This document shows, piece after piece, positions 6,164 to 25,142 of a DNA stretch of 64,000 nucleotides (position 1 is its first letter; each line of letters opens with the position of its first letter). The position numbers were made by a program, and so were the translations under genes. The notes under the pieces were generated by a model. It had not been told where the DNA came from. It saw only the letters and a program-made list of their open reading frames with translations, and did not search any database. Source of the DNA: Owenweeksia sp. (GTDB lineage Bacteria > Bacteroidota > Bacteroidia > Flavobacteriales > Schleiferiaceae); assembly GCA_002695025.1 (NCBI GenBank), contig NZNV01000017.1, positions 434,001-498,000 of the forward strand, read 5' to 3'.

Positions 6164-7132
6164 ATGAAAAAAACAAATTTACTGATCACAGGTGGAGCCG
6201 GTTTTATAGGCTCTAACCTGGTAGAGTATTTTCTGCAGGATGAGCGAGTGGGCTTGGTAAGGGTGCTCGATGATCTGAGTAATGGCTATTACGAGAATAT
6301 AAGAGAGTTTGAATCGCACCCCCGCTTTGAATATGTAAAAGGCGATATCTGTAATTACGATACCTGCCTCAAGGCAATGGAAGGTATTCACAGGATAAGT
6401 CACCAGGCGGCCCTCGGTTCGGTACCACGCTCCATAGAAAACCCTATGCGTTCTACCGAGGTGAACATCCTTGGAACGGTTAACATTCTGCATGCTGCCG
6501 TTGAGAAGAAGATCGAAAGGGTAATCCTGGCGTGTAGTTCCAGTACGTATGGTGATAGCCAGGAATTACCCAAGGTGGAAGACCGTATAGGCACACCTCT
6601 AAGTCCGTACGCAGTTACCAAATTCTCTATTGAGCAGTTTGCCGATGTATTCCATCGTACCTACGGACTCAATTACATTGGGCTCAGGTACTTTAACGTT
6701 TTCGGACCCCGGCAGAATCCTGACAATCCGTACGCTGCGGTAATCCCTATTTTCTGCAAGGCCTTCTTAAAGGGAGAGCGTCCTACTATTAACGGTGATG
6801 GCAATACCAGCCGTGATTTCACCTATGTGACCAATGCTATCCGGGCTAATGAACTGGCTTTGTTTACGGAAAATGAAAACGCCCTCAATACCATTTACAA
6901 TACCGCCTGCGGAGAGCAGGTAACCTTAAATGAAATGATAGGGTTTCTACAGGAAATATCCGGGAAGAATATTGAAGCAATATATGGCCCGGAGCGAGCC
7001 GGTGATGTTCGGCATTCCAAGGCCGATATCAGTAAGATATCCAGTAAACTGGGCTACAGGCCTCAGGTGAAAATGCGCGAGGGTCTTGCACAGGTGTATG
7101 AATGGTATAAAGAAAACAAGACTTTTGAGTAA
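6164..7132 (+). CDS. wbpP: UDP-GlcNAc/GlcNAcA 4-epimerase (WbpP/TviC type)
   Basis: A 322-residue extended short-chain dehydrogenase. It has the NAD-binding TGGAGFIGSN near residue 9, the catalytic SSS(T)YG stretch (about 122-127) and the YxxxK motif in SPYAVTK (Tyr149/Lys153). The sequence GLRYFNVFGPRQNP is usual for the UDP-HexNAc 4-epimerase group. Working with the preceding dehydrogenase it should interconvert the gluco and galacto forms of the UDP-HexNAc uronic acid in the cytoplasm. It starts 38 bases after wbpO and its end overlaps the TTG start of the NeuB-like gene. GalE-type activity on UDP-Glc is less likely given the pairing. Confidence 0.85.
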   Translation: MKKTNLLITGGAGFIGSNLVEYFLQDERVGLVRVLDDLSNGYYENIREFESHPRFEYVKGDICNYDTCLKAMEGIHRISHQAALGSVPRSIENPMRSTEVNILGTVNILHAAVEKKIERVILACSSSTYGDSQELPKVEDRIGTPLSPYAVTKFSIEQFADVFHRTYGLNYIGLRYFNVFGPRQNPDNPYAAVIPIFCKAFLKGERPTINGDGNTSRDFTYVTNAIRANELALFTENENALNTIYNTACGEQVTLNEMIGFLQEISGKNIEAIYGPERAGDVRHSKADISKISSKLGYRPQVKMREGLAQVYEWYKENKTFE

Positions 7133-8135
7133 AGCTGTATTTATTATTGCCGAGATCGGACAGGCACACGAAGGCAGCCTGGGAATAGCCCATTCCTATA
7201 TAGACGCCTTGGCCAGAACGGGAGTGGATGCCATTAAATGGCAAACCCATATAGCCGAAGCCGAGAGCAGCGCCAAAGAACCTTTCCGGGTAAAATTTTC
7301 CTATGAGGATGATACCCGTATTGACTATTGGAAAAGGATGGAGTTTACTCCTGAGCAATGGAAGGGTCTGAAAGAACATTGCGAGGAAAAGGGTATGGAG
7401 TTTATATCCTCGCCTTTCAGCAATGCTGCGGTGGACCTGTTGGAAGAGATTGGAGTGAAACGCTATAAGATAGGATCCGGGGAAGTGAGTAATTTCCTGA
7501 TGCTGGAAAAGATAGCCCGCACCGGAAAGCCGGTCATCCTTTCCTCGGGAATGAGTTCATTTGAGGAGCTGGACCAAACCATTGGCTTTCTGCAGGACTT
7601 TGGTAATGAACTGTCCATATTGCAATGTACCACAGCTTATCCTACCAAAGCTGAGGAGTGGGGACTCAACGTGATCACGGACCTTATAGAGCGCTATAAT
7701 TTACCGGTAGGCTTTTCGGACCATAGTGGTGATATATACGCCTGTTTGGCGGCCACTGCTTTAGGTGCTACCACCCTGGAGTTTCACGCAGTTTTTGATA
7801 AACGCATGTTCGGCCCCGATGCCCGAGCTTCGCTGGAAATTGACCAGATAAAGAAATTGGTGGAGGGTGTACGGAGTATCACGCTATCCCTCGAAAACAA
7901 GATTGATAAGAACGACAATAGTCGTTTTTCCGAATTGAAGAATATTTTTGAAAAGTCCCTTTCTGTAAACTGTGACCTTGATGCAGGTCAGGAGATCAGC
8001 ATGGAACATCTGGAAGCCAAAAAACCCAAAGGGCAAGGCATGAATGCCAGCCTTTTCAGGGAGGTGATTGGTAAAAAGCTAAAGCGCCCTCTTAAAAAAT
8101 GGGATTTCTTAAACAAGGAAGATATTGAGCTATGA
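7125..8135 (+). CDS. neuB: Nonulosonic acid synthase (NeuB/LegI family)
   Basis: About 336 residues, condensing phosphoenolpyruvate with an N-acetylmannosamine-type sugar to a nine-carbon acid. The TIM-barrel part begins AVFIIAEIGQAHEGSL and has KWQTH, FISSPFS, YKIGSGE and GFSDHSGD, all NeuB hallmarks. The C-terminal SAF (antifreeze-like) domain covers about 280-336 (VNCDLDAGQEIS, KPKGQGM). I chose the TTG at 7125, which overlaps the end of wbpP by 8 bases and puts the first strand at the usual distance; in-frame TTG 7086 and ATG 7098 would add 13 or 9 residues. The stop overlaps the NeuC-like start (ATGA). Whether the product is Neu5Ac or legionaminic acid depends on the NeuC-like substrate. 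Confidence 0.87.
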   Translation: MSKAVFIIAEIGQAHEGSLGIAHSYIDALARTGVDAIKWQTHIAEAESSAKEPFRVKFSYEDDTRIDYWKRMEFTPEQWKGLKEHCEEKGMEFISSPFSNAAVDLLEEIGVKRYKIGSGEVSNFLMLEKIARTGKPVILSSGMSSFEELDQTIGFLQDFGNELSILQCTTAYPTKAEEWGLNVITDLIERYNLPVGFSDHSGDIYACLAATALGATTLEFHAVFDKRMFGPDARASLEIDQIKKLVEGVRSITLSLENKIDKNDNSRFSELKNIFEKSLSVNCDLDAGQEISMEHLEAKKPKGQGMNASLFREVIGKKLKRPLKKWDFLNKEDIEL

Positions 8136-9307
8136 CAAATAACCCCGGCTCAGCCAAACGAAAAATATGTGTGGTAATAACGGCTCGTCCCAGCTACAGC
8201 CGTATTAAAACCGCCCTGAAAGCTATCCAGGATCATCCTGAGCTCGAGTTGCAACTGGTGGTTGCAGCCTCAGCCCTTTTGGATCGGTACGGCTCTGCCG
8301 TAAACTACATTGAGGCCGATGGTTTTGAAATTGCGGCCAAGGTGTTTAACATCCTGGAAGGTGAAAATCTTACCGCAGCCGCCAAAACCACCGGTATCGG
8401 TATTTTAGAGCTGTCTACGGTATTTGATAACCTCAGTCCGGATATCGTGGTTACCGTAGCCGATCGTTTTGAAACTATGGCTACCGCCATATCAGCCAGT
8501 TACATGAATATTCCCCTGGCGCATATACAAGGGGGAGAGGTAACCGGTAACATTGATGAGAAAGTAAGGCACGCTATTACCAAGCTGGCCGATTACCACC
8601 TGGTAGCCTCGGAAGGTGCTAAAGAAAGAGTATTGAAACTGGGAGAGAATCCTGATTTTGTTATAAATACAGGTTGCCCTTCTATTGATATAGCCGCTGA
8701 GGTGGCAGCAAGCCCTGAGTTCAACTTCAACCCTCTTACCAAATATGGCGGAGTAGGAGCTAATGTTGATTTCAATGGGAAGTATATTGTTGTAATGCAG
8801 CACCCTGTTACTAATGAGTATGCCCAATCCAGGTCACATATAGAGGAGACACTGGCTGCCGTGAATGAGTTGAAGGTGCCCACTTTTTGGTTTTGGCCCA
8901 ACGTGGATGCCGGTTCGGATGGTACCTCCAAGGGTATCCGGTCTTTTCGTGAGAAATACGGCCCCGAACATATTCACTTTTTCAAGAATATGGAACCCGC
9001 AGACTTTTTAAGGTTGCTGATCAATTCCAGTTGTCTTATCGGTAATTCGAGTGTAGGTATCCGTGAGTGTGCCTACCTGGGAGTTCCGGTTGTCAATATC
9101 GGCTCACGCCAAAACAGGCGCGACCGCGGAAATAATGTGTTGGATGTAAGCTACGGGCGGGAAGAAATAAAATCAGCCATTACGCAATGGTTGGATGCTC
9201 CAAGACCAGAACCTTCAATGGTATACGGTGGAGGTGATGCAGGAAAGAAGATAGCAAATCTCCTGAACCAGTTCCCCCTTACTTTCCACAAGACTATAGC
9301 ATATTGA
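8132..9307 (+). CDS. neuC: Hydrolysing UDP-sugar 2-epimerase (NeuC/LegG family)
   Basis: A 391-residue GT-B-fold enzyme that inverts C2 of a UDP-N-acetyl sugar and releases the free manno sugar for the NeuB-type synthase. Visible motifs: VVITARPSYSRIKTAL at the start, DRFETMATA, HIQGGEVTG and, in the C-terminal half, QHPVTNEY and IGNSSVGIRE. These separate the hydrolysing NeuC group from the non-hydrolysing WecB enzyme at 33097. It overlaps neuB by 4 bases and is followed by neuA after 10. Since the locus also carries genes for a bacillosamine-type UDP sugar, the substrate may be UDP-diNAcBac (LegG role) rather than UDP-GlcNAc (NeuC role). Confidence 0.87.
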   Translation: MTNNPGSAKRKICVVITARPSYSRIKTALKAIQDHPELELQLVVAASALLDRYGSAVNYIEADGFEIAAKVFNILEGENLTAAAKTTGIGILELSTVFDNLSPDIVVTVADRFETMATAISASYMNIPLAHIQGGEVTGNIDEKVRHAITKLADYHLVASEGAKERVLKLGENPDFVINTGCPSIDIAAEVAASPEFNFNPLTKYGGVGANVDFNGKYIVVMQHPVTNEYAQSRSHIEETLAAVNELKVPTFWFWPNVDAGSDGTSKGIRSFREKYGPEHIHFFKNMEPADFLRLLINSSCLIGNSSVGIRECAYLGVPVVNIGSRQNRRDRGNNVLDVSYGREEIKSAITQWLDAPRPEPSMVYGGGDAGKKIANLLNQFPLTFHKTIAY

Positions 9308-9317
9308 TCAATCGAAA

Positions 9318-10010
9318 ATGAGGATACTAGGCTTAATAACCGCCAGAGGAGGATCCAAGGGAATTCCCGGTAAAAACATCAAACCCTTACATGGCAAGCC
9401 GCTATTGGGATATGTAGCCGGTGATGGTTTGAATTCATCTACTCTAAGCAAGTTTATTATCAGTACCGATGATCAAAAAATAGCAGATGTAGCCAGGGAT
9501 TTTGGTGTGGAAGTACCCTTTTTAAGACCAAAGGAACTGGCAGCTGATGATACACCGTCTATAGATGTGTTAAGGCACGCTTTGAGGTATTTTGATGAAG
9601 AAGGTGATCATTACGATGCCGTTTGTCTTTTGCAACCAACCAGTCCGTATAAACCAGAAGGTTTTATCGATAAGTGCGTTCATAAATTCATGGAAAGTGA
9701 GGCCGATTGCCTGATAAGCGTGCTTCCGGTACCTCACCAGTTCAGTCCTTACTGGACTTTTAAACCGAATGATGAAGGGTTCCTGAATTTTGCAGCGGGT
9801 GATGTAAGGATAAACCGCAGACAGGATCTGCCGGAAACTTATTATCGTGATGGGTCGGTGTATGTGGTCAGGAGAGATATTATATTAAACCACAGCTCAT
9901 TGTTGTCGGGTAGGATATCTTATATGGTATCCAATATGGATTATTATTGTAATTTGGATACGATGGATGATTGGCGCCATGCAGAATCCAATTCCGTACC
10001 AAAAGGATAG
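9318..10010 (+). CDS. neuA: CMP-nonulosonate cytidylyltransferase (NeuA/LegF family)
   Basis: A 230-residue cytidylyltransferase that activates the NeuB product with CTP. The nucleotide-binding start is TARGGSKGIPGKNIKPL (a close match to the NeuA signature), with STDDQKIADVA, LLQPTSP and the late RDGSVYVVRR. It is the third gene of a neuB-neuC-neuA run. A second NeuA-like gene of different detail lies at 21796, so this organism may activate two different acids. The 3' end runs past the likely start region of the next gene in another frame, but the start I prefer for that gene (10033) gives no overlap. Confidence 0.86.
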   Translation: MRILGLITARGGSKGIPGKNIKPLHGKPLLGYVAGDGLNSSTLSKFIISTDDQKIADVARDFGVEVPFLRPKELAADDTPSIDVLRHALRYFDEEGDHYDAVCLLQPTSPYKPEGFIDKCVHKFMESEADCLISVLPVPHQFSPYWTFKPNDEGFLNFAAGDVRINRRQDLPETYYRDGSVYVVRRDIILNHSSLLSGRISYMVSNMDYYCNLDTMDDWRHAESNSVPKG

Positions 10011-18676: not shown

Positions 18677-20083
18677 ATGCAAAAAATTGTTTACATAATT
18701 TCTCACGGTCATACTGCCCGGGGCGCATTGCAAACGGGCCTGCTGGGTGAGCTTAGCAAGACAGCAGATGTTCATGTGGTGGCCAAACCTGAAGCGGTTG
18801 AAGCACTCAGGACCACCGTTGAGAGTGAGGGTGCTTCCATTCATGTTTACGATTATAGTATGGACCGTTCCGATGAGCATCGCGGTATCCTCAGGTCCCA
18901 TGTGCATCAGAATATCCGTAAAAATCCCGCTCTATGGGAGAAACACCTCTGGCGTACCCGTTCTAACAAAAACTCGTTAAAAAGGCGTTTACCTAATCAT
19001 TTATACTATTACCTGGGAGCTTTTCTCCGTGTTTTGCCGGGTGCGCGAAAGGCGTTTACCAAAATGGAAGCCAAGGGTTACTTTAAACCTGATGCGGCCA
19101 GGATATTAAAGGAAATAAACCCGGATATTATCATCTCTACCCGGCCGGTTGATGAAATGGAGATATGCCTGCTGGAAGCTGCACGCAGGTTGGGCATTCA
19201 TCGCTCCATCTATATCCTGAGTTGGGACAATATAACCTCCAAAGGTATTTTCCCGGTATTGGGTGATTCCTATTTAACGTGGGGACCGGTGATGAACCAG
19301 GAATTAAAAGAATACTACAATGTCCAGGATTCCGAGATATTCAATACCGGGGTCACTCATTTTGATATTCACGCCCGGGTACGGGAAGGAGTATTGAAAA
19401 TACCGGACCTGTTGCAACAAATGGGGCTGGACAGTAGTAAGCCCTATCTCTTCTTTACCATGTCAGCCTCGTACTTTGCCCCCAATGAAATTGACATTGT
19501 AGAATGGTTGGCGAAGGAAGTGGAAAGCAACAGCTTTGGGGATGATATGCAATTGATCGTGCGGCCACACATGGCTAATCTAATGGCCAACCGTTCCGAT
19601 CAAAGCTGGCTGGGAAGGTTGCAAAAGCTACCTTCCAAAAGGGTAGTCCTGGATTTGCCGGATGCGGAGAACAGCTTGCTTACATGGTATATGAAGCATG
19701 ATGATATGATCAAGCTTTCCAATCTCATCAACGGGGCATCGGTATGTTTAAATTCCGGTTCAACCATTGCCATTGAAGCAGCCTACCTGAACAGGCCAGT
19801 GGTTTTAACCGCTTTTGATCTGGAGAAATTCCCCAAATGGAAATCCGCCAGACGCTTGCTGGAATACATCCACCTGGCAAAATTCGTATCCTTTGGTGGT
19901 TCTACAGTAACAACCAACCTGGAAAACCTGAAAGAAGCTATCGAAAATTACCTGAAAGATCCGAAGTTACACGAAATGGAGCGACAAAAGGTGGTGGAAA
20001 TGGAATGTTATAAAAATGACGGACGGGCCACTCAGCGCTTTGCAGAAAATATTGCCACTATACTGAAAAGAATCGCGAAATAG
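18677..20083 (+). CDS. Probable GT-B-fold glycosyltransferase of unknown specificity
   Basis: A 468-residue protein. The opening KIVYIISHGHTARGALQTGLL and the late ASVCLNSGSTIAIEAAYLNRPVVLTAF stretch look like a GT-B fold with the C-terminal donor site, related in style to CDP-glycerol/UDP-GlcNAc-epimerase-like transferases. WDNITSKGIFP and FNTGVTHFD in the middle recall proteins that read a 'time/space' of donor, but I cannot name a family. It is followed with no gap by a HAD phosphatase gene (GTG start next to the TAG). It may be a glycosyl- or glycerol-phosphate-type transferase for the product of the odd pathway encoded at 20084-24103. Confidence 0.55.
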   Translation: MQKIVYIISHGHTARGALQTGLLGELSKTADVHVVAKPEAVEALRTTVESEGASIHVYDYSMDRSDEHRGILRSHVHQNIRKNPALWEKHLWRTRSNKNSLKRRLPNHLYYYLGAFLRVLPGARKAFTKMEAKGYFKPDAARILKEINPDIIISTRPVDEMEICLLEAARRLGIHRSIYILSWDNITSKGIFPVLGDSYLTWGPVMNQELKEYYNVQDSEIFNTGVTHFDIHARVREGVLKIPDLLQQMGLDSSKPYLFFTMSASYFAPNEIDIVEWLAKEVESNSFGDDMQLIVRPHMANLMANRSDQSWLGRLQKLPSKRVVLDLPDAENSLLTWYMKHDDMIKLSNLINGASVCLNSGSTIAIEAAYLNRPVVLTAFDLEKFPKWKSARRLLEYIHLAKFVSFGGSTVTTNLENLKEAIENYLKDPKLHEMERQKVVEMECYKNDGRATQRFAENIATILKRIAK

Positions 20084-20707
20084 GTGAAAGGCTATAGCAG
20101 TGTTATTCTGGATGTGGATGGGGTATTGTTTGACTCCAATACGCTCAAGCATGATAATATCAGGAAGGCAGCCAGTGAGTATGCTGAAGGAGAAAAGCTG
20201 GAGGAATTTCTGTCCTATTTCATATTTCACAATGGTTTGCCTCGCGAGATCAAGATCGAGAAATACTTTGGTGAGGGAACCGAAATATCACAATCTCTTT
20301 TAAACCGCTATAATGAATTAAATCAGCAAACGCTGATGACCGTGGACATGACGCCCGGAGCAAGGAATTTCCTGATGGAAACCTCTGCACAAATGCCGGT
20401 TTGGGCTTTATCCGGGGGCGCTGAGCATGAGGTTAAGGCGCTGTTCGAAAAAAATAATATCACGTCCTTTTTTAAGGGAATTTACGGAGGCCCCGTCTCT
20501 AAAAAGGAACATATAAAAAAGATTCCCATACAACAGCCATGTCTGTACGTTGGCGATAGCAAGGTGGATTATGAAACCGCTCAATTGGTGGATGCCCATT
20601 TTACTTTTATGACGCGCTATACCCAGTTTGACGGATGGGCCGATTTTTTTGAAGATAAACCGGAAGTTACTATTATTCCGGATCTTACATATTTTTCCAG
20701 GATCTAA
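20084..20707 (+). CDS. HAD-superfamily phosphatase
   Basis: A 207-residue HAD hydrolase. Motif I is ILDVDGVLFDS (nucleophile Asp10, acid Asp12), motif II is WALSGGAE, and motif IV is VGDSKVDYETA. The cap sequence between residues 20 and 85 is the small helical type found in sugar-phosphate phosphatases. The GTG start abuts the stop of the gene before. It is followed by a GAPDH-like gene, so I suppose it removes a phosphate from an intermediate of that cassette; it could also be a nonulosonate-9-phosphatase-like enzyme. Confidence 0.72.
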   Translation: MKGYSSVILDVDGVLFDSNTLKHDNIRKAASEYAEGEKLEEFLSYFIFHNGLPREIKIEKYFGEGTEISQSLLNRYNELNQQTLMTVDMTPGARNFLMETSAQMPVWALSGGAEHEVKALFEKNNITSFFKGIYGGPVSKKEHIKKIPIQQPCLYVGDSKVDYETAQLVDAHFTFMTRYTQFDGWADFFEDKPEVTIIPDLTYFSRI

Positions 20708-20739
20708 ATTCTTATAATTCAAAATCAATTCAAATCAAC

Positions 20740-21795
20740 ATGATTAAAGTAGGTATCAATGGCTTTGGCCGAATCGGAAGAGCTATTTTCAGAAATAACC
20801 TGAACAAAGAATTTTTTCAGGTGGTAGCAATCAATGATATCAATCCCGATAATAACAACATCGCCTATACATTGAACTTTGACACCTTGTATGATCGTCT
20901 CGACAACGCCTTTAAAGTGGATGGAGATAACCTGGTGAGCGCTGACGGTTCTCATAAAATTGCGTTGAGCCATGAGAGGTCTGTGGCCGATGTGGACTGG
21001 AAATCACACGGTGTGGATTTCGTGATAGATGCTTCCGGAGTATACCAGAATGTATTGGATGCCCAGAAAGTGATCGAAAGTGGCCAGGCTAAAAAGGTAT
21101 TTGTTACACACTCTCCCAAAAACGTTGATTTCACCATGGTGTTGGGTGCCAATGAACATTTGCTGGATGTGGAGAAGCACCACGTGATCTCCACCAGTAT
21201 TTGTGATGCCACAGCTATTGCCCCGGTTACCAAAGCCATTAAGCAGACATTTGGCATTGAGCACGGCTATGCTACCACCTTGCACCCCTGGCTGAACTAC
21301 CAGAACCTGATGGATGGCCCGGCCAGCTCATGGTCGGTTCCCGGTGAGATATACCACCATTTTGCCCTGGGAAGATCATCTATCGGTAACATGATACCCA
21401 AGCCTACTTCAGCTATTACCGCTACCTGTACAGTATTGGAAGAAGAAGGTATTACCGAAGAGATTATCGGTTCTTTCTCTTACCGTACTCCTACCGCTAT
21501 TGTGGGTAGTGCTGACCTTACCTTCCACATCAGTGAAAAGGCACAGACTAAAGACGTATTGGATCTTTTTGAAAAAATGGAATCCAGCCAGCAGTGGCCT
21601 ATAGTACATAACAACTGGGAGCCACTAGTTTCCCTGGATTTCAAAAAAGCGGATTATGCAGCTGTGATCGACCACCGCTGGACCAACGTACTGCAGGGGC
21701 ACATGCTGAAGCTGGTACTTTGGTATGACAATGAGTGGGGTTATGCTGCTCGCGTACTCGATCAAATCAAGTTAGTGGAAGAAAAACTGGGATAA
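20740..21795 (+). CDS. Divergent glyceraldehyde-3-phosphate dehydrogenase homologue
   Basis: A 351-residue GAPDH-fold protein, somewhat longer than the usual 330-335. NAD motif INGFGRIGR is at residues 6-14, and WYDNEWGYAARV near the end is conserved. The catalytic pair is kept: Cys155 (in STSICDATAIAP) and His182 (in TTLHPW). But the canonical SCTTN around the Cys is changed to ICDAT, and the phosphate-site region after DGP lacks the usual WRGGR pattern, with an insertion of a few residues. It should oxidise an aldehyde, probably phosphorylated, other than glyceraldehyde 3-phosphate; erythrose 4-phosphate dehydrogenase (Epd) is one known such case. The neighbours (cytidylyltransferase, FAH, 2-hydroxyacid dehydrogenase) argue against a role in glycolysis. 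Confidence 0.75.
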   Translation: MIKVGINGFGRIGRAIFRNNLNKEFFQVVAINDINPDNNNIAYTLNFDTLYDRLDNAFKVDGDNLVSADGSHKIALSHERSVADVDWKSHGVDFVIDASGVYQNVLDAQKVIESGQAKKVFVTHSPKNVDFTMVLGANEHLLDVEKHHVISTSICDATAIAPVTKAIKQTFGIEHGYATTLHPWLNYQNLMDGPASSWSVPGEIYHHFALGRSSIGNMIPKPTSAITATCTVLEEEGITEEIIGSFSYRTPTAIVGSADLTFHISEKAQTKDVLDLFEKMESSQQWPIVHNNWEPLVSLDFKKADYAAVIDHRWTNVLQGHMLKLVLWYDNEWGYAARVLDQIKLVEEKLG

Positions 21796-22545
21796 ATGAG
21801 AACCGGAGATATTAAAGTAGTAGTCCCTGCCCGCCTGGGCAGTAAAAGGGTAATGGTGAAAAGTCTGAGGTTGCTCAATGGAAAGCCTCTGATCAGTTAT
21901 ATCCTGGACACGCTGAAGGAAACCAAATACCTGAAAAATATCTACATCAATTCAGACAGTGATTATTTTGGTGAAATAGCTAAAGAGAGCGGAGTTAATT
22001 TTTACAAGCGTAAACCCGAGCTGGCTACCAGCGAATCACTTATTGATGAGTATTTATATGATTTCATGGTGCATGAAAAGTGTGATTACGTGGCGGTTGT
22101 AAATCCTACTTCGCCCTTTATTACACCTGAAGAGCTGGATGCAGCCTGGGAACATTTTGCTTCTAATGATTTTGACACCATGCTGTGCTGTGAAAAAATT
22201 CAGACGCATTGTTTCTACAAAGGAGAGACCATTAATTTCTCCAGAGTCGGTAAGCATCCTCGTTCCCAGGACCTGGAGCCCGTATTGGCCTTAAACTTTG
22301 CCATCACCATTTTTGATTGCAAGAAATTCATAGCCAACTATGAAAACCTGGGCTGGGGAGTATACACCGGTAAGTTGGGTTTCTTTACTACCGAAGGTGA
22401 GTCTAATATTGATATAGATTACGAGGAAGACTTCCAGTTTGCCGAATATGTAGCCCGTTTTAAAGGCTCAGGCGAAAAAAGCGAGCCGCAGTATTCACCC
22501 ATCGTTCAGGATTTGCTGGACCAGAATATAGACCCACGAAATTAA
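21796..22545 (+). CDS. Second NeuA-like cytidylyltransferase
   Basis: A 249-residue protein of the NeuA/KdsB-type cytidylyltransferase fold: VVVPARLGSKRVMVKSLRLLNGKPLISYIL at the start, INSDSDYFGEIA, and VVNPTSPFITPEEL. Compared with the NeuA at 9318 the first loop is different (ARLGSKRV rather than ARGGSKGI) and the later RDGSVY motif is missing, so it likely activates another substrate. It starts directly after the GAPDH-like stop and shares the TAATG junction with the FAH gene, which suggests joint translation. I infer it makes a CMP ester of the product of this cassette. Confidence 0.7.
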   Translation: MRTGDIKVVVPARLGSKRVMVKSLRLLNGKPLISYILDTLKETKYLKNIYINSDSDYFGEIAKESGVNFYKRKPELATSESLIDEYLYDFMVHEKCDYVAVVNPTSPFITPEELDAAWEHFASNDFDTMLCCEKIQTHCFYKGETINFSRVGKHPRSQDLEPVLALNFAITIFDCKKFIANYENLGWGVYTGKLGFFTTEGESNIDIDYEEDFQFAEYVARFKGSGEKSEPQYSPIVQDLLDQNIDPRN

Positions 22546-23147
22546 TGATCAACCCACGTAATATTCATTGCCTTGCCCTGAACTATAAAGGCGTTGGCGC
22601 TAATGACCAGGTGCCTTTGTATTTTGTAAAATCACTATCAGCTTTATGCTTTACCGGGGCGGAGGTGCCTTATCCTTCCAACTCCGAAAGTATGTGGACG
22701 GAGGTGGAGCTGGGCATCGTAATTTCAAAGCCTTGCGAAAATGTAAGTGAGGAAGGTGCCAGGGATTATATAAAAGGGTTCACGGTGTGTGCGGATATTA
22801 CGTGTTCCAACCTGCACGGCAGGGATCATCACCTGGGCTTTTCCAAAAGCCGCTATAATTTTTGTCCTGTATTGGATGTATGCCTTGAAATGGACCTGGA
22901 AGCGCTTCCTGATCTTAAACTGGAAACCAGTATCAATGGCAAGCTTACCCAGTCCGGCTACCTGCGCGATATGATCTATGATACGGCAAAGAGTGTGTCT
23001 TTTGTATCACAGATCACACGCCTGGAGGAAGGGGACATTATCCTTACCGGAACACCCAGCGGGGTGGAGAATAATATCATTAAGGCGGGTGACCAAGTGG
23101 TGCAGACCATTGAGAACATCGGTTCACTGGAATATAGCATTGTATAA
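22545..23147 (+). CDS. Fumarylacetoacetate hydrolase (FAH)-family protein
   Basis: A 200-residue protein of the short FAH form: WTEVELGIVI and the metal-binding acids near residue 63, HGRDHHLGFSKSRYNFCPV in the middle, and GDIILTGTPSGV near residue 165. Members cleave acylpyruvates, decarboxylate oxaloacetate, isomerise or dehydrate 2-keto-3-deoxy acids. A place in an amino-acid catabolic operon is excluded by the neighbours; in this cassette it would act on a 2-keto acid made by the dehydrogenase that follows. No other FAH gene or aromatic pathway gene is in the window. Confidence 0.8.
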   Translation: MINPRNIHCLALNYKGVGANDQVPLYFVKSLSALCFTGAEVPYPSNSESMWTEVELGIVISKPCENVSEEGARDYIKGFTVCADITCSNLHGRDHHLGFSKSRYNFCPVLDVCLEMDLEALPDLKLETSINGKLTQSGYLRDMIYDTAKSVSFVSQITRLEEGDIILTGTPSGVENNIIKAGDQVVQTIENIGSLEYSIV

Positions 23148-23158
23148 ACAGCAGAGAA

Positions 23159-24103
23159 ATGGCCAAGATTGCAATTACAGATTACTTTGATACCCCATCC
23201 GCAGAAGAACGCGAGATACTGGGAGATCTGGTAAGCGTTGGTCCGGGACCTGATACGGAAGTACTTTTGGTTTGGCACGATAAGATTGATGCCAGTTACG
23301 TGAAAGACCTTCCGAAACTCAGAGGTGTACAGCGATATGGAGTAGGCTTTGATAACCTGGATGTGGATTATCTCAAATCCAAGGGAATTACCTGCTGCAA
23401 TAATCCCGATTATGGTGTGGATGAGGTCTCCGATACCGCAATGGCCTTTATTATGACAATAAGCCGTGGGGTTTTTCGCTATGATGCCATAGCCCGTAAA
23501 CTAACGGATACCTGGCAGGAGAATATCTTGCCACAGATCAAACGTGCCAATCAAACCAAAGTAGGGGTGATCGGTGCCGGACGTATCGGGACCAGTGTAC
23601 TGCTAAAATGCCAGGCCCTGGGCTTTCAGACGGTGTTCTTCGATCCGTATAAGGAGAGCGGACATGAAAAAGTAGTGAGGGCCAAACGGGTTCACTCGCT
23701 GGACGAACTCCTTGCTGAAGCGGATATAGTCAGTATCCATTGCCCGCTTAGCAAGGCAACATCGGGCATGGTAAACCAGGATTTCATTTCCGCAATGAAG
23801 GATGGTGCTGCATTGGTAAATACCGCGCGGGGCGGTCTCGTGGCAGACCTTGAAGTACTGCACGATAACCTGAAATCAGGAAAGCTATCCTTTGTATACC
23901 TGGATGTGATCCCACAGGAACCTCCGGCTGATAACATGCTTATTGAAGCCTGGAGAGCACAACCGGATTGGCTGCAGGGGCGATTGATCATAAACCCACA
24001 TACCTCGTATTTTTCCCAATCGTCCATTCTTGACCTCAGAAGGGGAGCGGCCAGCAATGCCTTGCGATTGTTTAATGGGGAAAAGCCCCTAAACGTCCTT
24101 TAA
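23159..24103 (+). CDS. D-2-hydroxyacid dehydrogenase (PGDH/PdxB-like)
   Basis: A 314-residue NAD-dependent dehydrogenase with the complete catalytic set: GAGRIG nucleotide motif (139-144), Arg224 (TARGG), Glu254 (PQEPP) and His281 (NPHTSYFS). It would interconvert a 2-hydroxy acid and a 2-keto acid. With a GAPDH-like enzyme in the same run, the pair recalls Epd and PdxB of pyridoxal synthesis (erythrose 4-phosphate to 4-phosphoerythronate to its 2-keto form), but no SerC-type or pdx gene follows, and a cytidylyltransferase is present instead. The starting residues and lack of an ACT domain exclude a full-length serine-pathway SerA. Confidence 0.8.
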   Translation: MAKIAITDYFDTPSAEEREILGDLVSVGPGPDTEVLLVWHDKIDASYVKDLPKLRGVQRYGVGFDNLDVDYLKSKGITCCNNPDYGVDEVSDTAMAFIMTISRGVFRYDAIARKLTDTWQENILPQIKRANQTKVGVIGAGRIGTSVLLKCQALGFQTVFFDPYKESGHEKVVRAKRVHSLDELLAEADIVSIHCPLSKATSGMVNQDFISAMKDGAALVNTARGGLVADLEVLHDNLKSGKLSFVYLDVIPQEPPADNMLIEAWRAQPDWLQGRLIINPHTSYFSQSSILDLRRGAASNALRLFNGEKPLNVL

Positions 24104-24104
24104 A

Positions 24105-25142
24105 ATGAGCAGGCGCCTTTTTGTGGTTGTTAATCCCTCCCATTACCTCAATGCTATTGAGTATGTGTATCAACAAGGTGGAAAAGATGACCATATTGCC
24201 ATTATGACCCGCCATACCAAAGGTATCCAGGAGATTGACAAACTGGGAGTAGAGGGTATGTGGTCCGAAATATACCGCATGGAGTGGGAGAACCCCGGTG
24301 ATTACAGATCAGACAAGGAGTTTTTTACCAGGAGCCAGGCTTTTCTCCATCAAACTTTTGAAAAATGTGCCCCGGATGAGATCATTGTGGGTAACCTGGT
24401 GGATGGTAATCTTTATCCCTTCATTTTAAAGATCAAGAACAATGTATCCGCCATAACCGTGCTGGATGATGGAACTCCAACCCTGAATGTGGCTGATAAA
24501 AGGAATGGCGGTAATTTTTACCAGGCGTATCATTTCCGTTCATTGCGCATACTGGCCAAGAATATACTTTACCAAAAAATATTTCCTCCCGCTTATCGGC
24601 CGCCTAGGAATATAACCTTCTTTTCGCTATTCAATTTTCCACTTCCTGAAGGGGATAAGTTGATCAACAATGATTACAGTTGGGTGAGATCCAAGGTGAA
24701 GGAAAACCCGCAAACCAATGAATTTCTGTTTATTGGATCCCATATTGTGGACCGTAAGCTAGTTACAGAAGAAAACTATCTTTGGTCGCTTAAAAAAGTG
24801 ATGGAGGATGTTTCAGGAACGGGCCTGGAGTTTAAATATGTACATCATCGGAGTGAATCGGATCACATGAAGAAAAAGATCAGCGAGATCTGCAATACTA
24901 CGGAATTCAATATGCCACTGGAGCTGATGTTCCTGGACAAGCCGAGGCCGGCTATGTTTGCCGGGCATTTTTCCTCCGCGCTTTTTACACTATCGCGAAT
25001 TTTTCCTGCCCTGGAGATCAGGGCTTATTTGTTTCCGGAAAAGATGATACTGGGAAGTGAGTATGAATCCAGGGAATATATCCTCAGGGTGCAGAAGGCA
25101 CTTGAAACCGATGCCACTACCAAGCATAAATACCTGGCATGA
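24105..25142 (+). CDS. Sialyltransferase-like GT-B glycosyltransferase
   Basis: A 345-residue protein that I place, with moderate certainty, with the bacterial CMP-sialic acid transferases (GT52/polysialyltransferase style). The evidence is the acidic ITVLDDGTPTLNV stretch near residue 120 (the D/E-D-G motif), the basic FKYVHHRSESDH in the place of the usual HP motif near residue 245, and PLELMFLDKPRP followed by AGHFSSALFTL, which resembles the late motif with the SSAL turn. A CMP-linked donor fits the two cytidylyltransferases in the locus. It starts 1 base after the dehydrogenase gene. Whether it uses the nonulosonate or the unknown product of the cassette cannot be told. Confidence 0.55.
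   Translation: MSRRLFVVVNPSHYLNAIEYVYQQGGKDDHIAIMTRHTKGIQEIDKLGVEGMWSEIYRMEWENPGDYRSDKEFFTRSQAFLHQTFEKCAPDEIIVGNLVDGNLYPFILKIKNNVSAITVLDDGTPTLNVADKRNGGNFYQAYHFRSLRILAKNILYQKIFPPAYRPPRNITFFSLFNFPLPEGDKLINNDYSWVRSKVKENPQTNEFLFIGSHIVDRKLVTEENYLWSLKKVMEDVSGTGLEFKYVHHRSESDHMKKKISEICNTTEFNMPLELMFLDKPRPAMFAGHFSSALFTLSRIFPALEIRAYLFPEKMILGSEYESREYILRVQKALETDATTKHKYLA

Follow-up and report, generated by a model that had tools for sequence, protein, structure and literature searches.

Gene content, recurrence, and distribution of the cassette

The window analyzed here, a 64,000 nucleotide stretch of Owenweeksia sp. (assembly GCA_002695025.1, contig NZNV01000017.1, positions 434,001 to 498,000), carries within a glycan operon a cassette of five genes coding for a HAD phosphatase, a dehydrogenase related to glyceraldehyde-3-phosphate dehydrogenase (GAPDH) and termed GAPL, a cytidylyltransferase, an FAH-family protein, and a D-2-hydroxyacid dehydrogenase (DHDH). 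In window coordinates, the genes are:

20084..20707, + strand: HAD phosphatase of the HAD2 family (GTG start, 207 amino acids; Pfam HAD_2)
20740..21795, + strand: GAPL, a dehydrogenase resembling GAPDH but placed in its own clade (351 amino acids; Pfam Gp_dh_N and Gp_dh_C)
21796..22545, + strand: PF02348 cytidylyltransferase of the NeuA/KdsB superfamily, CYT6 group (249 amino acids; Pfam CTP_transf_3)
22545..23147, + strand: FAH-family 2-keto-acid enzyme (200 amino acids; Pfam FAA_hydrolase)
23159..24103, + strand: DHDH of the PDYG-motif group (314 amino acids; Pfam 2-Hacid_dh)

A preliminary description of the window had reported five tightly packed genes with gaps of 0-32 bases and two stop-start junctions, and the open reading frames confirmed this layout with spacings of 32, 0, -1, and 11 bases inside the cassette, which directly abuts the gene on its upstream side and is separated by one base from the gene on its downstream side, the junctions being the adjacent bases 21795/21796 and a one-base overlap at 22545 (TAATG). 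The domain identities given there were likewise upheld by Pfam and NCBIfam, with all five calls exceeding the Pfam cut-offs, and the catalytic motifs were complete in all five proteins except for the His of the FAH protein.

The five-gene arrangement exceeds chance and recurs in about 30 other genomes. GAPL and DHDH were searched separately in a phylum sample of 395 genomes and their relatives (E ≤ 1e-62 for GAPL and E ≤ 1e-75 for DHDH) occurred in the same four (the host genome, G016, G077, and G137), a coincidence of three in 394 genomes with a probability of about 1 in 10 million if the two were independent. GAPL was 62-68% identical to the single copies in the three other genomes. A GTDB scan with GAPL, using one genome per species, gave 80 loci (loci are denoted by L numbers), and linkage was counted among neighbors within 6.5 kb in the 40 GAPL loci flanked on both sides by 3.5 kb or more, the loci being chosen by GAPL alone and the neighbor families clustered without prior choice. 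Both a PF02348 cytidylyltransferase and DHDH lay near GAPL in 33 of the 40 loci, a HAD protein (HAD2 or HAD9 family) in 25, and FAH or an HpcH/HpaI aldolase in 26, while all four partners were present in 21; none of the control loci, comprising 13 Campylobacterota GAPDH-like and six canonical GAPDH genes, had cassette partners. A chance neighborhood of five genes was therefore rejected on the co-occurrence in 395 genomes and the 40-locus linkage, and the check proposed in the preliminary description, a search for the homologues together in other genomes, revealed strong linkage.

GAPL loci were found in more than 10 phyla (taxa taken from record titles) including Bacteroidota, Calditrichota, Myxococcota, Bacillota, cyanobacteria, Pseudomonadota, Elusimicrobia, Omnitrophota, KSB1, Chloroflexi, Oligoflexia, and Desulfobacterales. 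The usual gene orders were HAD-GAPL-cytidylyltransferase-FAH-DHDH and GAPL-HAD-cytidylyltransferase-FAH/HpcH-DHDH. Minimal sets without FAH or HpcH (L034, L036, L042, L046, and L073) define GAPL, DHDH, and the cytidylyltransferase as the core; in L034, with a GAPL 83% identical to that of the window, the order was HAD-GAPL-cytidylyltransferase-DHDH. Beyond this core, the HAD gene is frequent and FAH/HpcH is an accessory or exchangeable part, such that the earlier listing of FAH as a member of the set stands for the window and some loci but not as a fixed feature, as many loci have HpcH/HpaI in its place and others lack both. A plasmid search with GAPL returned only ordinary GAPDHs with less than 35% identity, full-length matches in an IMG/VR scan were just about 30% identical, and the genes neighboring DHDH relatives on Azospirillum plasmids were uninformative.

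Clade and active site of the GAPDH-like dehydrogenase

The GAPDH nicotinamide adenine dinucleotide (NAD) domain was present in three further genes of the host genome. A quick maximum-likelihood tree of 85 rows, which took in two of these three copies (the third was not cleanly readable), placed GAPL in a clade apart from canonical GAPDH with a Shimodaira-Hasegawa-like approximate likelihood ratio test support of 100. GAPL shares with type I GAPDH the fold, the NAD domain, the catalytic Cys155 and His182 (retained in all 49 clade members), and the substrate-site Arg249. In contrast, the active-site motif was I-C-D in 49 of 49 clade members (I154, Cys155, and D156 in the window) and S-C-T in 19 of 19 canonical GAPDHs; L185 and Y187 were invariant in the clade where canonical enzymes have T and mostly D/S; K221 was present wherever the column was filled (T in canonical GAPDH); position 224 was S/T instead of G; and W314 was a further addition.

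In a GAPDH ternary complex, the Ser and Thr of the S-C-T motif and the Gly that follows the loop Thr serve as ligands at the "new Pi" phosphate site (PMC2662861). GAPL does not have this inorganic-phosphate site, with the Ser replaced by I154, the Thr by D156, and the Gly by S/T224. The loss of these ligands makes phosphorolysis unlikely, such that an acyl phosphate would be an unlikely product and a free acid released by hydrolysis the natural one. Hydrolytic release of a free acid is also the chemistry of Epd. Judged from the separate clade, the replaced residues, and the three other GAPDH genes, GAPL is a non-glycolytic enzyme with a rebuilt active site, and the objection raised in the preliminary description, that it might be an ordinary glycolytic GAPDH without another copy in the genome, was rejected.

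The scores against NCBIfam models were 231.5 bits for type I glycolytic GAPDH (TIGR01534, cut-off 367) and 183.9 bits for Epd (TIGR01532, cut-off 530), and DHDH scored 92 bits against PdxB (NF001309, cut-off 434). These values bear on a housekeeping explanation in which GAPL and DHDH serve vitamin B6 synthesis as Epd and PdxB, or GAPL is a spare glycolytic GAPDH, present in the operon by chance. The genome does contain PdxJ and the two proteins are distantly related to Epd and PdxB, but with GAPL in just four of 395 genomes, scores far below the cut-offs, a cytidylyltransferase linked in 33 of 40 loci, and three other GAPDH copies, this explanation is very improbable. The clade placement, the motif, the scores below cut-off, and the rarity of GAPL led to rejection of the glycolytic GAPDH, Epd, and PdxB roles.

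A nested GAPDH-like subclade was also identified in the Campylobacterota (L072, L076-L081, L083-L086, L089, L091, L092, and L095-L097), with the motifs S-S-C-N-A and HPLLNHQ and housekeeping surroundings that in some genomes include an adjoining canonical GAPDH and phosphoglycerate kinase, or triosephosphate isomerase. An Epd-like role is one idea for this subclade.

Partner enzymes and flanking transferases

The cassette cytidylyltransferase matched PF02348 with 73.6 bits (cut-off 22.6) and contains the metal-site DxD as D206/D208. Its scores fell below the NCBIfam cut-offs for PseF (71 versus 206) and KdsB (TIGR00466, 21 versus 155). Known PF02348 enzymes activate the hemiketal hydroxyl of their substrates, which are 2-ulosonic acids without phosphate. 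Across the loci, three PF02348 groups occupied the cytidylyltransferase slot, including a KdsB-like group in L051 and L059, and L046 contained a cytidylyltransferase fused to a radical SAM domain. The genes outside the cassette that bear on its function are:

7086..10010, + strand: NeuB, NeuC, and a first cytidylyltransferase, a separate nonulosonate set
18677..20083, + strand: candidate GT-B (glycosyltransferase B) fold transferase (PF04464; weak BFO_1060-family match)
24105..25142, + strand: ST43, polysialyltransferase-like GT-B protein (predicted structure; DDG, HHR, and SSA motifs)

The presence of NeuB, NeuC, and NeuA-like genes in the same operon, and the common Pfam family of the two cytidylyltransferases, would suit an alternative in which both activate the same nonulosonate and the other four cassette genes modify that sugar. 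This alternative was regarded as improbable since the two cytidylyltransferases are only 22% identical, NeuB was absent within 10 kb of most cassettes (e.g., L033, L037, L039-L046, and L049-L053), and the chemistry of GAPL and DHDH is unnecessary for a nonulosonate.

The HAD protein contains the motifs D10-x-D12, S110, K140/K141, and G157-D158...D162, and a PDB sequence search with it gave no match. In L046 (7960-14945), a HAD domain forms the C-terminus of a 673 amino acid protein encoded between DHDH and GAPL. The DHDH matched PF02826 with 142 bits and has the R224/E254/H281 triad and the NAD domain. Other associations of these enzymes included GAPL and DHDH adjoining a class V aminotransferase of the type that aminates 2-keto acids in L071, which fits a 2-keto acid, and a ketol-acid reductoisomerase flanked by DHDH and the cytidylyltransferase in L093 (14467-15543). 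In L031 (8725-10336), a different D-2-hydroxyacid dehydrogenase is the immediate neighbor of a cytidylyltransferase related to that of the window, and because this genome has no GAPL match the pairing of the two enzyme types may be a wider theme. A possible second cytidine monophosphate (CMP)-sugar set adjoins the GAPL cassette in L029 (4596-9078), where functions read from sequence were a Gfo/Idh oxidoreductase, SIS isomerase, cytidylyltransferase, cyclase-family hydrolase, inositol-phosphatase-like protein, and another 2-hydroxyacid dehydrogenase. In the Balneolales locus L059 (5665-6972), a phosphoenolpyruvate mutase with a cytidylyltransferase-like N-terminal part lies just upstream of the cassette, and with similar clusters in L053 and L063, phosphonate and acid-sugar decorations would stand side by side in these loci.

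The FAH protein matched PF01557 with 142.9 bits and retained the metal ligands E53, E55, and D84. The acylpyruvase FAHD1 has a catalytic His-Glu dyad in its lid (PMC8398924). Inspection of 16 FAH proteins showed Leu or Val where FAHD1 has its catalytic His (NYxxH), with the Glu kept in some longer members; the FAHD1 lid sequence was placed by its numbering. The absence of the dyad His with the metal ligands kept argues against acylpyruvate hydrolysis by the cassette protein. In many other loci, the FAH slot was filled by an HpcH/HpaI aldolase, with FAH and HpcH together in just three of 40 loci, and in L068 by another FAH-family gene, while L047 contained an HMGL-like aldolase. FAH and HpcH are both metal-dependent enolizers of 2-keto acids, and for this reason their presence fits a 2-keto acid delivered by DHDH. 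When the genomes of L034, L036, L042, L046, and L093, which are of uncertain completeness, were queried with the FAH of the window and the HpcH of L087, neither query had a close match.

The gene following DHDH, ST43, had no Pfam family but gave a predicted structure (predicted local distance difference test score 86.5) whose best match was a bacterial polysialyltransferase with bound cytidine diphosphate (CDP; Foldseek E 7.5e-10), with Z scores of 22.4 and 22.0 (root-mean-square deviation 5.1 over 320 residues for the former) compared to 16.4 for the next fold. This best match to a CDP-bound polysialyltransferase makes a CMP-sugar the likely donor of the modeled protein. The upstream gene at 18677-20083 was modeled with a generic, epimerase-like GT-B fold to which no donor could be assigned on that account. 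Both transferase genes were kept beside the cassette in its closest relatives, with the upstream gene only in L033-L036, and sequence profile searches of both against the PDB gave nothing useful.

A proposed route to a CMP-activated 2-ulosonic acid

We tentatively propose, at somewhat short of even confidence, that the product of the cassette is a 2-ulosonic (2-keto aldonic) acid, activated with CMP and destined for a surface glycan, which differs from the NeuB/NeuC nonulosonate. The proposal builds on the observed gene content and linkage, on the GAPL clade and its altered active site, and on a downstream fold resembling CMP-sugar transferases, while every substrate, the direction and order of the steps, and the product are conjectured from these. 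GAPL would convert the aldehyde (C1) of an aldose phosphate, most likely of at least five carbons, to a free aldonate phosphate, with the Cys155 thioester being hydrolyzed and not phosphorolyzed; DHDH would then oxidize C2 to give a 2-keto-aldonate phosphate as PdxB or phosphoglycerate dehydrogenase (PGDH) do; the HAD enzyme would take off the phosphate; the PF02348 cytidylyltransferase would couple CMP to the C2 hemiketal; and the polysialyltransferase-like enzyme would transfer the unit to the glycan. FAH, or HpcH elsewhere, may serve as an accessory by enolizing the 2-keto acid, e.g., in setting the C3 configuration or exchanging a carbon unit, and can be missing because the oxidations, the phosphatase, and a KdsB/NeuA-type enzyme would yield the CMP-2-ulosonate directly. 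The earlier suggestion of a CMP-activated acid put on the glycan was thus supported as a class and strengthened by the adjacent polysialyltransferase-like protein. Known PF02348 enzymes activate a hemiketal hydroxyl, and because 2-keto acids of three or four carbons are unable to form a hemiketal, a ulosonate of five or more carbons is expected; the tetrose or triose phosphate put forward in the preliminary description is therefore doubtful as the sole carbon source unless an aldolase adds carbons, and several loci have no FAH/HpcH to lengthen the chain.

Several points weigh against this proposal. GAPDH-type enzymes act on aldehydes in the open-chain form, of which sugars with five or more carbons provide little, and the HpcH members keep all of the aldolase residues (His, Arg, Glu, and Asp, with roles following HpaI), a better fit to carbon-carbon bond making than to enolization. 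One GAPL branch (L065-L067) occurs with IspD- and TagF-like genes and without DHDH, and another (L045 and L048) with MobA/IspD-like (NTP_transf_3) nucleotidyltransferases and glycerate kinases, which suggests that the GAPL product can also be used while phosphorylated, as a CDP-linked acid. The neighbor hidden Markov models were also built from the same loci, some of which are near kin (L087/L090, L051/L052, and L059/L063).

The first two points favor an aldolase route in which GAPL, HAD, and DHDH turn erythrose 4-phosphate or glyceraldehyde 3-phosphate, the C3/C4 open-chain aldehydes that GAPDH-type enzymes prefer, into a C3/C4 2-keto acid to which FAH/HpcH adds a second aldehyde before CMP activation of the longer 2-ulosonic acid. 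The HMGL-like aldolase of L047 and the operon slot shared by FAH and HpcH are in agreement with such a route, but several loci have neither enzyme nearby, no close copy was found in the five genomes searched above, C3 acids are already central metabolites, and FAH proteins are not known to form aldols; this route is unlikely, though less so than the other alternatives.

The variant GAPL branches, together with the PF04464 match of the upstream gene, are the basis for a further alternative, a CDP-linked phospho-acid (e.g., a CDP-aldonate, analogous to CDP-glycerol or CDP-ribitol) in which the cytidylyltransferase would take a phosphate ester as substrate and the acid phosphate would be transferred by a TagF-like enzyme. 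The pathways for CDP-glycerol and CDP-ribitol (TagD, TarI-TarJ, and TagF) likewise use cytidine triphosphate (CTP) to activate small, non-cyclic sugar derivatives that enter a surface polymer, and they resemble the L065-L067 variant. In contrast, the window type has a PF02348 enzyme, the known members of which use phosphate-free acids, a linked HAD phosphatase, DHDH, and a downstream polysialyltransferase-like ST43, whereas the IspD/TagF type has no DHDH, making this alternative rather unlikely for the window. Among the variants themselves, an IspD-like cytidylyltransferase was beside GAPL in L065, L066, L067, and L094, and all of these loci except L094 (IspD only) also had a TagF-like glycerophosphotransferase, a possible source of a CDP-linked phospho-acid polymer. 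An NTP_transf_3/IspD-like nucleotidyltransferase occurred in the GAPL loci L045, L048, L070, and L074, with glycerate kinases from two unrelated families in L045 and L048 and a class II ketose-bisphosphate aldolase, iron-containing alcohol dehydrogenase, and FGGY kinase in L070.

Compared to known systems, the proposed CMP-2-ulosonate route resembles the CMP-3-deoxy-D-manno-octulosonic acid (Kdo) and CMP-nonulosonate pathways (KdsA-KdsC-KdsB, NeuB-NeuA, and PseI-PseF) in having a HAD phosphatase and a PF02348 enzyme that activates a 2-keto acid sugar followed by a GT-B CMP-sugar transferase, but the cassette has no phosphoenolpyruvate (PEP)-dependent synthase and the keto acid would come from GAPL and DHDH, with FAH or HpcH. 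The two oxidations follow the logic of Epd and PdxB, a GAPDH-family oxidation of an aldose phosphate at C1 and then a PGDH-family oxidation at C2, although with a different active-site motif and with linkage to a cytidylyltransferase and glycan genes instead of PdxA/PdxJ. Short 2-ulosonic acids exist in bacterial capsules, such as the 4-deoxy-2-hexulosonic acid of the Escherichia coli K3 capsule (Dengler, 1988, as cited in PMC10433991); GAPL-like DNA was not found in the E. coli genome collection. Literature searches directed at a gene set of this type, or at ulosonic or aldonic acids of short chain length, returned no account of it. The synthesis of CMP-activated acid sugars is already known as a kind, of which this enzyme set appears to be a new form.

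With similar caution, the cassette may represent a widespread route to CMP-2-ulosonic acids in which oxidation by GAPDH-family and 2-hydroxyacid dehydrogenases replaces the PEP-condensing synthases of Kdo and the nonulosonates. If so, GAPL would be a new enzyme class within the GAPDH family, with about 50 clade members in more than 10 phyla that are likely annotated as glycolytic GAPDH, and the cassette would amount to a second general way in which bacteria, among them marine groups such as SAR86 and Prochlorococcus, make acidic CMP-sugars for their surfaces. Glycan loci with this small, defined enzyme set would then become readable for a specific residue.

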